A DNA stretch of 40,178 nucleotides. It comes from Methylococcales bacterium (GTDB taxonomy: Bacteria > Pseudomonadota > Gammaproteobacteria > Methylococcales > Methylomonadaceae). Position 1 is the stretch's first letter; every line of letters starts with the position of its first letter. The stretch lies in the NCBI GenBank assembly GCA_003584875.1, contig QVQD01000171.1, forward strand, positions 1-40,178, in the 5' to 3' direction. The notes beneath the pieces were generated by a model. That model was not told where the DNA came from. It saw only the letters and a program-made list of their open reading frames with translations, and did no database searches. The position numbers and the translations under genes are program-made. This document shows positions 4,831 to 26,109 of the stretch, piece after piece.

Positions 4831-5244
4831 GTAGGATGGATAAGCGATAAAGACTGTGAAAGTATTCTTTTTTCCCCCTCTTTAGCCGTAGGTATCTTCA
4901 CAAGTTTCTTATCGGCGTGGAAACGATAAAAATCACCGTTGGGTTGTATTGCATACGCCCAATATCGAAAGTCCAATGTTATAGAGCTTATTTTATAAGG
5001 GCGTATGCAATACGCCCCTACGATCTTCACCACAATGTTATCGTTCTGCGTGGGAATGCTAACAATTATTTTTGTAGATACCTATGCTCTTTAGCAAAGA
5101 GGGGTTAAGGCAGATTTGGGCTATTAAAAATAATCATTAAATATTATTAGCCTATAACACAAAAAATCCCCTCAGCCCCCCTTTTACAAAGGGGGAAGCT
5201 AAAATCACAATACTTTCACAGTCTCTGGCGCTTATCCACCCTAC
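4831..5244. repeat. Long inverted-repeat element (GTAGGATGGATAAGCG...ACTGTGAAAGTATT ends), interrupted by a nested MITE
   Basis: gtaggatggataagcgataaagactgtgaaagtatt at 4831 onward is an imperfect reverse complement of aatactttcacagtctctggcgcttatccaccctac ending at 5244. Confidence 0.75.
4878..5095. mobile_element. CATAGGTATC-family MITE, copy 1 (long form), with 9-bp target duplication
   Basis: Element 4887-5086 runs cgtaggtatcttcacaa...ttttgtagatacctatg. Direct repeat CTCTTTAGC at 4878-4886 and 5087-5095. Confidence 0.85.
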
Positions 5245-11229: not shown

Positions 11230-11459
11230 AAAATAAACATTAAATCCACTGCATAAGAGCACCAAATTTACATGGAACCAGTTCATTTTTAGCTAAAAAA
11301 TAACTTATCTAGTGTCAGTATAGTAATTTAATTGTATCTTGTTAGCTTTATATTTTACAATTCAAAGCGGTATATAAGTTAACCGGACGATAATTAGGCT
11401 ACACAGAACAAAAATCGGCCTCAAACTGATCACACATAAAATAATATTTGGAGGATAGT

Positions 11460-12464
11460 ATGTTTAAAATTCGTGCACTGGTAACAGCGCTAACCCTAAT
11501 AGGTTCTATTTCCGTAGCGACGGCTTGGGAAACATTACCCACTTCAGCACCCGCTCCTGCTGACAACCCAACGACAGAAGAAAAAGTTGAACTAGGCAAA
11601 ATGCTATATCATGACCCTCGCCTTTCTTCTACTGGCACTGTCTCTTGCGCCTCTTGCCACAATACTATGTTAGGTGGCGAAGACAATCGTCCTAACTCTA
11701 TGGGCGTAAATGGTCAAACCGGTGGTCGCAGCGCACCTACCGTTTGGAATTCAGCTTTTAATGCAGTTCAGTTTTGGGACGGCAGAGCTGCTAGCCTTGA
11801 AGCGCAAGCAGCAGGTCCAGTTACCAATCCTATTGAAATGGGTATGAAAAGTTGGGATGAAGTCGTTGCCCGCTTAAAAAGCATCGATGGTTACGCTAAA
11901 GCTTTTGAACTCGCATTTGGCAAGGATTCTATTTCTAAAGACAACGCGACTAAAGCTATTGCCGCTTATGAAAGAACCTTAATCACTCCTCACAGCCCTT
12001 ATGATAAATATGTCGCAGGCGATAAATCTGCTTTGACAGAACAACAAGTGCGCGGAATGAATAGTGTGCAAGAGTTGGGCTGTACTAGTTGCCATAGTGG
12101 TCCAGCATTTAATGGCCCAGGCATGTTCCAACCTTTCCCTATGCATAGCAATCCTTATTTTGCTGCCAAATATCATTTTAAAAATGATAAAGGACTAGCA
12201 GAAGTGACCAAAAAAGCCGAAGACGAACATGTATGGAAAGTCCCGACTTTACGCAATATTGCTTTAACTGCTCCTTATTTTCATAACGGTGCTGTTAAAA
12301 CTTTAGATGAAGCGGTACTCATTATGGGAAAACTGCAACTGGATAAAGATTTAAGTAAAGAGCAAGTTGCTGATATCGTGGCTTTTTTGAATAGCTTAAC
12401 AGGTGAATTCCCTAAACAAAAAATGCCAGTTTTACCTGCTACTCCTGGCACAACTTTCAACTAA
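11460..12464 (+). CDS. Di-heme cytochrome c peroxidase (CcpA/MauG family)
   Basis: Signal peptide, EEKVELGKMLYHDPRLSSTGTVSCASCHN (first CXXCH), ELGCTSCHSGPAFNGPGM (second CXXCH), VPTLRNIALTAPYFHNGAVKTLDEAV. ggagg RBS upstream. Confidence 0.95.
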   Translation: MFKIRALVTALTLIGSISVATAWETLPTSAPAPADNPTTEEKVELGKMLYHDPRLSSTGTVSCASCHNTMLGGEDNRPNSMGVNGQTGGRSAPTVWNSAFNAVQFWDGRAASLEAQAAGPVTNPIEMGMKSWDEVVARLKSIDGYAKAFELAFGKDSISKDNATKAIAAYERTLITPHSPYDKYVAGDKSALTEQQVRGMNSVQELGCTSCHSGPAFNGPGMFQPFPMHSNPYFAAKYHFKNDKGLAEVTKKAEDEHVWKVPTLRNIALTAPYFHNGAVKTLDEAVLIMGKLQLDKDLSKEQVADIVAFLNSLTGEFPKQKMPVLPATPGTTFN

Positions 12465-13131: not shown

Positions 13132-13265
13132 TTAAACACAATGTACAGTATTTGTACCCCGGCGTCCTTACCACCAAATTCACCGGCAGTTTTAAATTGA
13201 CCTACCTTCTAACCCTAAGACAGATGCTATGTCTGTTAACGAGTTGATTACTTTTGGAGAAATCT

Positions 13266-14132
13266 ATGAATAACTTTAATAAATCGTTGCTATCACTAGC
13301 ATTAGCAGCAACTCTGACTATCACTAGCACAACCACCATGGCCTACCCTACATTCACAATAAACCCTACAAACACAGGTGTTTCAGGGGAAAGCCCATCG
13401 ACCGTCGGCGACCTAACTGGAGACAAATTGGTAGGTGGTTACAATGAAATAGTTACCTTAAATACCAACGGCACTTTTAATGCGTCAATCCTTTGGAACG
13501 CTGGACAACTCTTTGATATCGGACTTGGTAACAGTTATACACTACCAATAGGTCTGTGGTTAACAGACCAATTTAATGGCACTTTTTCTACTGTTGCAGG
13601 AACAACAACATTCCATCCAGATGGCACTAGCACTCAAAGCTCAGCTCTTAGCATTTACTATACTAGTGGAGCCACAGGAATGAACGTAGGAATCTTACCC
13701 GTTAATGGGAGTAGCGTATTTACACCAACATTTACCGGATCAACTGGCACTACACTGATAGGTACCGGACAAGAACTTGCTTGGCCCCCCTATTACGGCT
13801 CGGCACTAGGAGGCGGCACCGTTTTTGGCCAAGGCTCTTTTGCTTTAGGTACCACTCTAAGCTTAATATCAACGGCTACTAATAACTATTTCGTCGATCC
13901 AAGCCCATTTTACAATTTATCATTACAATCTGGGCAATATAATACCTTGACTTTTAAAAGCACAGACCCAGTCACTGGAAGCAATACTTTTTCAAACAAC
14001 GGCTCTGCCGACATTATATTTAGCAATGCAAGCGTACCAGAACCAACCAGCCTTGCTTTAGTAGGCTTAGGCTTACTCGGCTTAGGTGCTATTAGACGTA
14101 AAAAACAATCTAATTCATCAATACGCGCTTAG
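13266..14132 (+). CDS. PEP-CTERM sorting domain-containing secreted protein
   Basis: N-terminal signal MNNFNKSLLSLALAATLTITSTTTMA; C-terminal VPEPTSLALVGLGLLGLGAIRRKKQ. Confidence 0.95.
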   Translation: MNNFNKSLLSLALAATLTITSTTTMAYPTFTINPTNTGVSGESPSTVGDLTGDKLVGGYNEIVTLNTNGTFNASILWNAGQLFDIGLGNSYTLPIGLWLTDQFNGTFSTVAGTTTFHPDGTSTQSSALSIYYTSGATGMNVGILPVNGSSVFTPTFTGSTGTTLIGTGQELAWPPYYGSALGGGTVFGQGSFALGTTLSLISTATNNYFVDPSPFYNLSLQSGQYNTLTFKSTDPVTGSNTFSNNGSADIIFSNASVPEPTSLALVGLGLLGLGAIRRKKQSNSSIRA

Positions 14133-14300: not shown

Positions 14301-15440
14301 ATGCAAGACGGTGTCAGATTTTCGGCAACAGAACAAGAATTAAAAGCCTCCTATCAATTACGCTATAAAGTATACGTTGAATATATGGGACGCTTTAAAG
14401 ACATGGGCGACCATGAGCTTAAAGAATTAAAAGATGAGTATGATGACTATGCTAGAGCTGTCATTGCCGTAAAAGATGGCGCAGCCATTGGTACGCTAAG
14501 ATTGTTTTGGGGACGAGATAAAGATTTTCCACCCCTAATGATTGATGCCTATCATTTATCGCCTTTTTTAGACAAACTGGAACAACAACAGATTTGTATT
14601 GTTGAGCGACTGATGGTGGATAAACATTATCGAGGCGGGAGTGCAACTTTACGTATGTATAAAGAAGTTATGCATTTTGTACTTGATCATCATATAGAAG
14701 CGGTGTTACTGAATTGCGAACCACACCACCTTAATTCATACTTAAAACTGGGCTTTAGACCTTTTACTCAAACCTATTCTTACCCAGGGATTGGCCTTGT
14801 GATTCCGATGGTTTTAATCACCGGTGATTATGAACATCTACAACGCGTGGGGTCACCATTTTATATGTTAACTAGAGAAGAAGATTTTAGCCATTGCCGC
14901 TTTGTAAGCGTATTGCAAAACACAATTGCTCAACATCCAAGTATAGTCAGCCAAACAACTTTAGGTAAAGCAGATTTTCTTAAACAAATTTATGACAGCG
15001 CCGATCCATTGGTAACCACTGAAGCTAAAATTTTCAGTGCCCTAGATCAAGACGAAATTGAACGCATGTTAGAGAAAAGCCATATCATTGAATGCAAAAA
15101 AGGCACTCATATTATTCAGAAAGATAATGCTGCAAAAACCATGTTTATTTTGCTCTCAGGCATATTAGAAATATTACGTGACGGTCAATTACAAGCTGTT
15201 ATTTATCCTGGTGATGTTATTGGAGAAATTTCTTTTTTCTTACATGTACCAAGGACTGCCGACATTATTGCTGCGACTGAAAATGTTAAATTATTAAGCC
15301 TTGATGAAGCCTCCTTGTCGCGCTTATTAAAATACGATCATACTCTTGCCAATAAGATATTAATGAATATATGTCGCAACTTATGTACACGAGTAATGGG
15401 TACCGAAATCCAACAACTCGCCAGTAAAAGTAGCGCTTAA
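14301..15440 (+). CDS. FeeM/autoinducer-synthase-like GNAT acyltransferase fused to a C-terminal cyclic nucleotide-binding domain
   Basis: N-half: LKASYQLRYKVYVEYMG...DDYARAVIAVKDGAAIGTLRLF...CIVERLMVDKHYRGG...LKLGFRPF. C-half: AKTMFILLSGILEILRDG...YPGDVIGEISFFLHVPRTADIIAATE (cNMP phosphate-binding-cassette-like). Confidence 0.82.
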   Translation: MQDGVRFSATEQELKASYQLRYKVYVEYMGRFKDMGDHELKELKDEYDDYARAVIAVKDGAAIGTLRLFWGRDKDFPPLMIDAYHLSPFLDKLEQQQICIVERLMVDKHYRGGSATLRMYKEVMHFVLDHHIEAVLLNCEPHHLNSYLKLGFRPFTQTYSYPGIGLVIPMVLITGDYEHLQRVGSPFYMLTREEDFSHCRFVSVLQNTIAQHPSIVSQTTLGKADFLKQIYDSADPLVTTEAKIFSALDQDEIERMLEKSHIIECKKGTHIIQKDNAAKTMFILLSGILEILRDGQLQAVIYPGDVIGEISFFLHVPRTADIIAATENVKLLSLDEASLSRLLKYDHTLANKILMNICRNLCTRVMGTEIQQLASKSSA

Positions 15441-15493
15441 TATCCATTAATAAAATCAGAAATATTCGTTATATATTATTCAGGATAGTCGGC

Positions 15494-15991
15494 GTGGACA
15501 CATCAACATCTAAAAAAACAACCAATATTGATCAATGTATTCGTCAATTGAATAAAATTCATAAGCAACGTTTAGGAGCTATAGGACCTTTGTTGGGCAT
15601 GTTTCTTATTCTATTGTTTGCTTGTGCGCTATTGCCTTTGTATTTGTTTCTCATATTTTTTAATGTTGTGTACTTTTGGATACGACGACAAAAACGCATT
15701 GACTCTAAACCTTATTTTAATTTTGATCGCCATCGATTGAACCACTTACGCTTTGCCGATAAAGTCTGGTGCGAATATTGTGAGTGGGCAAATGGTTCAT
15801 TGCAATGGGCCTTAGCCATAACTAATGAAATTGAACGCCGCTATTGTCCCATCCAAAACCAATGCCATCCACATTGTGAGAAGGCAAAAAGCTGGCGTGA
15901 TGAGTTTCTAGCCTACCAACATAATCCTGAAGAGATCAATCAGTATTACCGTGAGCGGTATTTAAAAGAATCAAAATTAGACGATAGCTAA
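15494..15991 (+). CDS. Uncharacterised membrane protein with C-terminal Cys-rich segment
   Basis: GTG start; hydrophobic segment GPLLGMFLILLFACALLPLYLFLIFFNVVYFWI; then WCEYCEWANG and RYCPIQNQCHPHCEKA. Confidence 0.75.
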   Translation: MDTSTSKKTTNIDQCIRQLNKIHKQRLGAIGPLLGMFLILLFACALLPLYLFLIFFNVVYFWIRRQKRIDSKPYFNFDRHRLNHLRFADKVWCEYCEWANGSLQWALAITNEIERRYCPIQNQCHPHCEKAKSWRDEFLAYQHNPEEINQYYRERYLKESKLDDS

Positions 15992-16039
15992 GACGTCGTA
16001 TAAACATCTCTTTATTTCATCCATCAATAGGACTGTAAC

Positions 16040-16897
16040 ATGCCAACTTTTGATTATGACCTAGCTTTTTCCAGAAACCATGGCATCACTAGCGCCACCG
16101 ATCAAGCCCACTTAAAAAATGCGACCTTTGCAATTGCTGGTATGGGTGGCGTAGGAGGTGATTACTTAATTACTTTATTACGTGCAGGCATAGGGCATTT
16201 TAAGCTATCAGACTTTGACTCATTTGAAATGGCTAACTTTAATCGTCAGTATGGTGCCACCATGTCAACGGTGGGTGTTAAAAAACTGGATGTTATGATT
16301 AAGCTTGCTTTAGATATTAATCCAGATGCCCAACTAAAAACCTACGAGGAAGGCATCAATGATCAAAATGTTGATGATTTCTTAACTGGAGTCGATGTTT
16401 TTATTGATGCCGTTGAGTTTTTTGAAATCAAGATACACCGATTACTCATTAACACCTGCATGAAACGAAATATACCGGTCATCTTTGGCGTACCCATGGG
16501 CTTTGGTGTTGGTGTTTTAGTATTTAAACCAGAAGGCATGAGTTTTGACGACTACTTTAATATTAATTACAAAGATGATTTAGGCCTGCAGGCTTTGAAA
16601 ATGGCTTTGGCTGCAGCACCAGCCGGCTTTCATCTCAAATATATACTGCCTGCCGCTTTCGATCTTGATAGCCGCAAAGCACCTAGCATCTCAAGTGGCT
16701 GTAAATTGGCAACAGGTATCGTTATTAGCAAGGCGATCTTAGCTTTATTACATCCTAAAGAACTTAAATCAGTCCCTCACTACACTTGTTATGATGCTCG
16801 ATTGAATCGATTAAAAAATGGTTATTTATGGAGAGGGAACAAAAACCTGTTACAGCAATTAAAATTTTTTATGGCTCGAAAGCGACTAGGTATTTAA
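16040..16897 (+). CDS. ThiF/MoeB/E1-like adenylyltransferase family protein
   Basis: FAIAGMGGVGGDYLITLLRAGIGHFKLSDFDSFEMANFNRQYGATMSTVGVKKLDVM: GxGGxG, D, NxxRQ and K motifs of the E1 superfamily. Confidence 0.88.
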   Translation: MPTFDYDLAFSRNHGITSATDQAHLKNATFAIAGMGGVGGDYLITLLRAGIGHFKLSDFDSFEMANFNRQYGATMSTVGVKKLDVMIKLALDINPDAQLKTYEEGINDQNVDDFLTGVDVFIDAVEFFEIKIHRLLINTCMKRNIPVIFGVPMGFGVGVLVFKPEGMSFDDYFNINYKDDLGLQALKMALAAAPAGFHLKYILPAAFDLDSRKAPSISSGCKLATGIVISKAILALLHPKELKSVPHYTCYDARLNRLKNGYLWRGNKNLLQQLKFFMARKRLGI

Positions 16898-16946
16898 GAA
16901 CGCAATAGCATCACTATAAGCTTGTAGCACATCATAAGGAGCCCTA

Positions 16947-17633
16947 ATGACACTTGAATCGCAAAACCCTAACAACTCTATCGCTCAATCAAAAGGCGCT
17001 GATGCCTATCGTGACCCTTCTTGGTGGTATGACATACGAGGTTTTTTTATTTTAATGGGTACTTATCAGGTAATGATTTGGACTCACTTAGCATTTTTTG
17101 CCAAAAACCTGGGTAATAAACACCTAGAAGCCGCTATAGGTTCTGGAACTTTTCTAGCATTAACTCTACTCACTAAGAAAATACTAGGTGGCAAACTACC
17201 TGAAGAAATTATAGGTATAGACTACGCTGAACGCATGCTCCAGGGTGCCCAAATATTATTCAAAAGCAACAAAAGCGTAAAGTTAGTTCAGGCAGACCTA
17301 GGCAATATCAACTATCCTGATGCCTATTTCGATTCAGTCAATATTGCTCATTCCTTTCATGCCTTTCCTGACCCTGACAAAGTGCTTAAAGAACTGAATA
17401 GAGTTATGAAACCGAAAGCTCATCTTTATGCTGATGTTTTACTTGCGCCACGAGGAGGTTGTTTGAGACGCGCCATTGCCACACGAGTCAACCGCTTCTG
17501 TTTTAAGAAAGGCATTTTAGCTAGAACCTGTGACCCAGAAACAACTAAGGCACAATTTGAAAGCAATCACTTTAATGTGATTAACAGCTATATAAAAGGT
17601 AATACTTACCACATAATCGCGGAGAAAGATTAA
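16947..17633 (+). CDS. Class I SAM-dependent methyltransferase
   Basis: LEAAIGSGTFLALTLL, IIGIDYAERMLQGAQ, VKLVQADLGNINYPDAYFDSVNIAHSFHAFPDPDKVLKELNRVMKP. Confidence 0.88.
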   Translation: MTLESQNPNNSIAQSKGADAYRDPSWWYDIRGFFILMGTYQVMIWTHLAFFAKNLGNKHLEAAIGSGTFLALTLLTKKILGGKLPEEIIGIDYAERMLQGAQILFKSNKSVKLVQADLGNINYPDAYFDSVNIAHSFHAFPDPDKVLKELNRVMKPKAHLYADVLLAPRGGCLRRAIATRVNRFCFKKGILARTCDPETTKAQFESNHFNVINSYIKGNTYHIIAEKD

Positions 17634-17681: not shown

Positions 17682-17779
17682 CCTTTAGCCTTTCGCCTTT
17701 CGCCTTTCGCCTTTAGCCTTTCGCCTTTCGCCTTTCGCCTTTAGCCTTTAGCCTTTAGCCTTTAGCCTTTAGCCTTTAG
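17682..17779. repeat. Tandem heptamer array (CCTTTAG / CCTTTCG), 14 units
   Basis: Counted directly: 14 contiguous 7-bp units, 98 bp, alternating only A/C at position 6. Confidence 0.95.
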
Positions 17780-17795
17780 CCTGTATTAAAAAAAA

Positions 17796-17940
17796 CATAG
17801 GTATCTACACAAGTTTCTTATCGGCGTGGAAACGATAAAAAAACACCGTAGGGGCGTATGCAATACGCCCCTACGATCTTCACCACAATGTTATCGTTCG
17901 CGCGTGGGAATGCTAACAATTATTTGTGTAGATACCTATG
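17796..17940. mobile_element. CATAGGTATC-family MITE, copy 2 (short form, 145 bp)
   Basis: cataggtatctacacaa ... ttgtgtagatacctatg perfect 17-bp TIRs; central perfect palindrome gtaggggcgtatgcaatacgcccctac. Confidence 0.85.
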
Positions 17941-25634: not shown

Positions 25635-26109
25635 TGTAGGCTGGATAAACACTAGAGACTTTGTAAGTATTCATTAATTTCATTAATTGCCCACAGTTGA
25701 GGGCAAGAAAAAAGATTCGGTTTTAGGGCATAGGCATCTACACAAATAATTGTTAGCATTCCCACGCGCGAACGATAACATTGTGGTGAAGATCGTAGGG
25801 GCGTATTGCATACGCCCTTATAAAATAAGCTCTATAACATTGGACTTTCGATGTTGGGCGTATGCAATACGCCCCTACGGTGTTTTTTGTCGTTTCCACG
25901 CCGACAAGAAACTTGTGTAATTACCTATGGTTTTAGGGGTGACAGATTCGCCTAGTAATCCGATGTCCCAAAATACAGGGCAAATTTGTCGCCCCTACAA
26001 ATGCTTAACTTTGAGTAGTGAGGGTTGGTGCGGGATAGTATCCAGGGCTAATGATATCGTTTTTGATGATTATGAAAAATACTTTCACAGTCTCGCTAGC
26101 GCATCCACC
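25635..26109. repeat. Second long element of the GGATAAGCG/ACTTTCACAGTCTC family, interrupted by a nested MITE
   Basis: gtaggctggataaacactagagactttgtaagtatt at the left; aatactttcacagtctcgctagcgcatccacc at the right, as inverted arms. Confidence 0.6.
25720..25938. mobile_element. CATAGGTATC-family MITE, copy 3 (long form, opposite orientation), with 9-bp target duplication
   Basis: Element 25729-25929; perfect direct repeat GTTTTAGGG at 25720-25728 and 25930-25938. Confidence 0.9.

Follow-up and report, generated by a model that had tools for sequence, protein, structure and literature searches.

A 40,178-nucleotide stretch of DNA from a Crenothrix-like, methanotrophic Methylococcales bacterium (assembly GCA_003584875.1, contig QVQD01000171.1; hereafter the window), whose genome has Methylococcaceae/Crenothrix polyspora assemblies as its nearest named relatives, carries a cluster of four genes. 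These encode, in order, a predicted FeeM-type N-acyl amino acid synthase (NAS) fused to a cyclic-nucleotide-binding (cNMP) domain (NAS-cNMP), a membrane-anchored Cys-conserved protein (CYS), a ThiF/E1-type adenylyltransferase (E1) and a methyltransferase (MT) (Table 1). The four genes are co-directional, with coordinates and intergenic gaps (53, 48 and 49 nt) exactly as claimed in an earlier note on this DNA. All four are real genes under purifying selection, since their dN/dS values, taken against two related genomes, lie at 0.04–0.12.

Table 1 Genes of the four-gene cluster and two genes on its 5' side, in window coordinates.
Feature	Position	Strand	Product	Family or remark
NAS-cNMP, predicted FeeM-type N-acyl amino acid synthase with cNMP domain	14301..15440	+	379 aa	FeeM, cNMP_binding
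CYS, membrane-anchored Cys-conserved protein	15494..15991	+	165 aa, GTG start	no family
E1, ThiF/E1-type adenylyltransferase	16040..16897	+	285 aa	ThiF, NF006077
MT, SAM-dependent class I methyltransferase	16947..17633	+	228 aa	Methyltransf_11/UbiE-like
PEP-CTERM surface protein, PepA-like (flocculation-associated family)	13254..14132	+		NF033554, 107.1 bits (cut-off 80)
MauG/MbnH-like di-haem protein gene	11448-12464			upstream of cluster

In NAS-cNMP, a FeeM-type GNAT domain (residues ~1–235) is followed by a C-terminal cNMP domain (~245–345) and a terminal helix. The protein matches the FeeM profile PF21926 over profile positions 2–155 of 158 (44.9 bits, cut-off 27) and the cNMP profile PF00027 at 55.3 bits (gathering score 27.5). 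A profile search against PDB sequences returned cNMP-domain proteins only and no GNAT, so the GNAT fold was assigned via structure instead. In an AlphaFold model (pLDDT 86), the GNAT half resembles the acyl-homoserine-lactone synthase BjaI (5w8e, E 5.9e-9), which has also been named among the closest structural relatives of TyzA (PMC10404671), and the C-terminal half resembles the cNMP-binding domain 3gyd (E 1e-9). These matches agree with the FeeM/LuxI-like GNAT with a cNMP domain that the earlier note had described. Judged by profile and model, the GNAT is a NAS of the FeeM type, with the N-acylation of an amino acid as its predicted activity.

The phosphate-binding cassette of the cNMP domain holds the required Glu and Arg (GEISFFLHVPRTA), and its Gly-Glu and Arg are kept in 17 of 17 aligned fusion homologues; as read from the sequence, the motif is intact. 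Given the two class III nucleotide cyclases (PF00211) encoded in the window genome, a cyclic-nucleotide ligand can be called plausible. A cNMP domain fused to a GNAT is known from mycobacterial Pat, a cAMP-dependent protein acetyltransferase, and NAS-cNMP weakly matches NF058543; in the window protein, however, the domain order is reversed and the GNAT is of the FeeM type, not a protein acetyltransferase. The synthase also resembles the PEP-CTERM/exosortase-associated NASs (TIGR03694) in its PEP-CTERM neighbour, its branch of the GNAT superfamily and its chromosomal slot in congeners, but unlike them it carries a cNMP domain and falls below the TIGR03694 cut-off. A TIGR03694 search of the window genome found no second NAS, and no plasmid relative of the GNAT-cNMP fusion was found. 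The fusion of a NAS to a cNMP domain with an intact motif is new: no paper that we found in the open-access literature deals with both FeeM or N-acyl amino acid synthases and cyclic-nucleotide-binding domains.

E1 belongs to NCBIfam NF006077 (PRK08223), with 302.8 bits for a cut-off of 266, and is nearest to this family rather than to the Rv1355c family PRK07877. Thalassotalea sp. PP2-459, which produces thalassotalic acid, has a ThiF that reaches 404 bits against the same equivalog and is 42% identical to E1 across 4–285; this ThiF is encoded within an operon of NAS, ThiF and a nitroreductase-type flavin oxidase (FDO), an arrangement that matches the published description (PMC12479983). The two clusters are alike in the family and tree group of their ThiFs and in the adjoining NAS; they differ in that the Thalassotalea NAS is of the TIGR03694 type without a cNMP domain, and in that its cluster has an FDO and neither a methyltransferase nor CYS. 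In a tree of 59 proteins (TyzB, OxzB, TrzS and Stieleria neptunia sequences left out), the NAS-linked ThiFs group together, with MoeB-like proteins falling outside; nested in the ThiF group is an 18-member methanotroph clade (support 100/99) that contains the window E1; two long-branch proteins (from loci L072 and L191) attach near this clade, with unsure placement. The adenylation/ATP-site residues G34/36/37/39 (GxGGxG), D58, D60, R69, K82 and D123 are conserved in 50–51 of 51 sequences, in an alignment without TrzS; one of the Asp residues presumably corresponds to D217 of TrzS, which lies in a motif mutated in that protein. The best PDB sequence match is 9egb/9egc.

ThiFs paired with NASs occur in the tyz, trz, oxz, thalassotalic acid and stieleriacine clusters (PMC10404671, PMC12856293, PMC12479983). 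In Mycobacterium, TyzB and TrzS (through its ThiF part) carry out the ATP-dependent cyclisation of N-acyl Tyr/Trp to oxazolones, with no protein carrier involved (PMC10404671, PMC12856293). By analogy, E1 is a predicted cyclase that activates the carboxyl of an N-acyl amino acid. The view of E1 as an orphan outside the known E1 pathways, put forward in the earlier note, does not hold: the protein belongs to the NAS-linked PRK08223 ThiF group, which acts without a ubiquitin-like carrier. No ThiS-, MoaD-, E2- or JAB-like protein is evident among open reading frames of at least 90 aa at 11–21 kb. Two gene fusions bear on these families. A 989-aa protein encoded on a Nitratidesulfovibrio vulgaris DP4 plasmid (L209, 7068-10037), inside an XrtA/PEP-CTERM polysaccharide locus, combines FeeM, ThiF and nitroreductase and so joins the families of the first and third window genes, and a 484-aa protein of a congener (L072, 8637-10091) combines a PRK08223-like E1 with a class I methyltransferase.

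Co-occurrence was assessed in 201 family genomes, where an identity of 67% or more defined membership of the window E1 clade. Fused GNAT-cNMP proteins are present in 18 genomes and the E1 clade in 15, and all 15 of these have the fused NAS (hypergeometric 5e-20, with no correction for relatedness). Gene order varies among lineages (for example MT-E1-PEP-CTERM-GNAT in L168), which argues that the association is more than inherited synteny. Besides the window genome, only its close relatives L082, L083 and L084 have the full four-gene set, which is therefore a local variant of a wider module; at the same site, congener L085 has the synthase and E1 only, without CYS and MT. MT homologues, found in six genomes of the family, adjoin E1 in five, two of these with an E1 of a 40% type. 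CYS, which most loci sharing this E1 and GNAT do not have, is likewise present in six of the 201 genomes and stands beside an E1 or NAS-like gene in every one, including one with a divergent (38%) E1. The module is conserved and real. The earlier note was right to propose that the genes form a set, and a lipidated small molecule is its most likely product. That note had looked for support to co-occurrence of all four genes in unrelated genomes; pairs co-occur across the family, but the full set is seen in closely related genomes only.

MT matches Methyltransf_11 at 62.4 bits and, weakly, phospholipid N-methyltransferase models and the fatty-acid O-methyltransferase Mtf2; it is predicted to be a tailoring enzyme of an N-acyl amino acid or oxazolone. 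A role in quinone biosynthesis was judged unlikely from gene context. An FDO forms part of the clusters of the canonical relatives. The tyzACB, trzAS and oxzAB oxazolone pathways, which share the acyltransferase and ThiF-type cyclase gene families with the window (PMC10404671, PMC12856293), require an FDO for desaturation, whereas the window genome (97.6% complete) contains no PF00881 nitroreductase, and FDO protein searches of it were also empty. The oxidase or METHYLTRANSFERASE comparison covered 38 E1 loci flanked on both sides by 3 kb or more: an FDO is present at 19, a methyltransferase at six and both at none (p = 0.01), and genomes carrying the methyltransferase have no FDO genome-wide. 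Within a single genus, the slot between MauG and thiC is occupied by this cluster or by a set of TIGR03694, ThiF and FDO genes, as in congener L066, where a ThiF and an FDO accompany two synthases of the TIGR03694 type. From this pattern we infer that MT and FDO share the ThiF product as their substrate, with methylation substituting for desaturation in the window genome; this is the weakest part of the argument. A UbiE-like methyltransferase in the oxidase's place, with no PF00881 nitroreductase in the genome, is new.

A third novelty is CYS itself, a membrane protein with conserved Cys residues that is encoded beside NAS/E1 genes and belongs to no known family. Across 32 homologues its invariant columns are C93xxC96, N100, E114 and C118-P-I. 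It has no Pfam or NCBIfam match, and its AlphaFold2 model (pLDDT 72) has no Foldseek match. The window protein is a short, divergent member of a Methylococcales family of ~200 aa (L076, L079, L080 and others), whose members show a transmembrane hairpin and the pattern CxYCxYxNG...EIAxRTExxWCPIKH. These longer relatives have no Pfam model either and are common across the order; their neighbour genes are unrelated and so give no functional clue to CYS. Possible roles of CYS are tethering of the enzymes to the membrane and metal binding.

Because E1 lies in the NAS-linked ThiF group and the GNAT is a FeeM-type NAS, we read the locus as an N-acyl amino acid/oxazolone-type lipid cluster. We put a probability of about 0.7 on its making a tailored N-acyl amino acid lipid through synthase, ThiF activation and methylation in turn. 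In the first step, the GNAT would N-acylate an amino acid, aromatic by analogy, from an acyl-ACP or acyl-CoA donor, and the fused cNMP domain would probably switch acylation by cAMP or cGMP. E1 would then adenylate the carboxyl of this N-acyl amino acid with no ubiquitin-like carrier taking part, and the activated species would either close to an oxazolone (azlactone) ring or be passed on. Where the relatives desaturate the ThiF intermediate with a nitroreductase-type flavin oxidase, the UbiE-like MT would here take over, methylating the ThiF product at ring C4 or trapping it as an O-methyl/methyl ester; methylation of the aromatic side chain, as in the stieleriacines, is a less likely outcome. 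The product would serve a PEP-CTERM/exopolysaccharide programme of flocculation or biofilm formation. The earlier note could not say whether the cluster had been described: its core matches the known N-acyl amino acid/oxazolone kind, from which the cNMP domain, CYS and the methyltransferase in place of FDO set it apart.

The core chemistry is thus predictable, and the interest lies in those three departures from it. N-acyl amino acid/oxazolone lipids are widespread, although neither their function nor their regulation is settled (PMC12856293); a NAS with a built-in cNMP domain and its own ThiF, in one methanotroph lineage, would give a handle on the timing of lipid synthesis. The recurrent pairing of ThiF with a methyltransferase that seemingly replaces the flavin oxidase points to a class of products that has yet to be sought.

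Several observations weigh against this assignment. NAS-cNMP misses the TIGR03694 cut-off by a wide margin (35.5 versus 111.95 bits; 36.5 in the genome search), which leaves its substrate class uncertain. E1 and NAS lie on separate contigs or far apart in G139, G121 and G068, and in L088, from Methylomonas lenta (the 74% E1), no NAS lies within 10 kb of E1. In the thalassotalic acid and stieleriacine producers, an oxazolone has never been seen and the role of ThiF is unproven (PMC12479983). The mutual exclusion of methyltransferase and FDO becomes statistically weak once the window genus is collapsed (p ~0.04), and Stieleria has both methyltransferase and nitroreductase genes (PMC12479983).

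Stieleria also lends support to a different account, in which MT acts directly on the carboxyl or the aromatic ring to give an N-acyl amino acid methyl ester or a ring-methylated N-acyl tyrosine, E1 playing a minor or different part. The stieleriacine-type cluster of S. neptunia, likened here by its published description, combines NAS, ThiF and UbiE-like methyltransferase as the window does, and stieleriacines are O- or C-methylated N-acyl tyrosines (PMC12479983); this cluster differs in having a nitroreductase, and neither a cNMP domain nor CYS is reported for it. N-acyl alanine methyl esters, of unknown genes, are made in Roseovarius (PMC11580390), and the weak Mtf2 match points the same way. 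Against this, MT adjoins or is fused to E1, not NAS, and takes the place of an oxidase that acts on Calpha, so that action on the ThiF product fits better; we regard direct methylation as possible, at well below even odds. Less likely again is an aminolipid route, in which an OlsB-like GNAT would make the head of an ornithine- or lysine-type lipid and E1 and MT would modify that membrane lipid. OlsB is the top NCBIfam match of the GNAT by E-value (8.8e-11), lipid-export genes (MMPL and LolA-like) are found repeatedly close to E1, and MT weakly resembles phospholipid N-methyltransferase models; the OlsB score, however, is 42 bits against a cut-off of 350, the cluster has no OlsA-like O-acyltransferase, and this E1 belongs to the group found alongside NASs. 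The E1 fold and the small conserved Cys-bearing membrane protein could also suggest protein or peptide modification, with E1 activating the C-terminus of CYS or of an unannotated peptide, the GNAT lipidating and MT methylating; this is very improbable, as the C-termini of CYS homologues are variable and not glycine-ended, the E1 clade is NAS-linked and CYS is missing at the majority of loci that have this E1 and GNAT. A chance neighbourhood of four unrelated genes, which the restriction of the full set to four closely related genomes and the different order in L168 might suggest, is hardly credible beside the 15/15, 6/6 and 5/6 associations of GNAT-cNMP with E1, of CYS with NAS-like/E1 genes and of MT with E1, and beside the fusions of E1 to methyltransferase and of FeeM to ThiF and nitroreductase.

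Returning to the tailored N-acyl amino acid lipid, the gene context offers a setting for such a product. The PEP-CTERM gene, on the same strand, ends 168 nt 5' of the NAS-cNMP gene and likely starts at the ATG at 13266. Its presence, like that of the convergent thiC on the other side, had been correctly described; its treatment as a boundary had not, in that it probably belongs to the functional neighbourhood. A PEP-CTERM gene lies within 6 kb of E1 at 8 of 11 window-clade loci and at 18 of 27 other E1 loci, and one is present in the equivalent cluster of S. maiorica (PMC12479983, PMC7293339). The link between NAS and PEP-CTERM goes back to Craig 2011, as cited in PMC11072679 and PMC7293339, and an effect of a related synthase on polysaccharide formation has already been described in such bacteria: the polysaccharide band of Methylomonas LW13 requires a PEP-CTERM NAS (PMC11072679). 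Our best guess for the role of the product is thus in exopolysaccharide, flocculation or biofilm behaviour.

Genes for TPR (PrsT-like) proteins recur near E1 genes, as do those for the MMPL exporter and LolA-like proteins. MMPL genes stand beside a NAS-linked ThiF in L206, L069, L075, L169, L174, L177 and L201, the first three of which also have a LolA-like gene, and suggest export of the lipid product. A homologue of the MauG/MbnH-like gene (81% identity) adjoins PEP-CTERM-type synthases in another genus (L206, 14426-15433); given this recurrence, the gene may be more than a passive neighbour. On the 3' side of the cluster, thiC is followed on the opposite strand by galU, a mannose-1-phosphate guanylyltransferase/isomerase gene and apsK.

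Since pepA of Aquincola needs RpoN (PMC9850573), the window was scanned for a sigma-54 promoter motif, with no match at up to two mismatches; scans of the window for sigma-70 promoters and terminators gave no excess over shuffles. Directly 3' of the cluster, at 17690-17790, lie ~14 copies of a 7-nt tandem unit (CTTTCGC/CTTTAGC). Three copies of an element resembling a miniature inverted-repeat transposable element, 145–201 bp long, are found at window positions 4887-5086, 17796-17940 and 25729-25929, with 17-nt terminal inverted repeats (CATAGGTATCTACACAA) and an internal palindrome (GTAGGGGCGTATGCAATACGCCCCTAC); six of its repeat ends were observed versus 0.03 expected.

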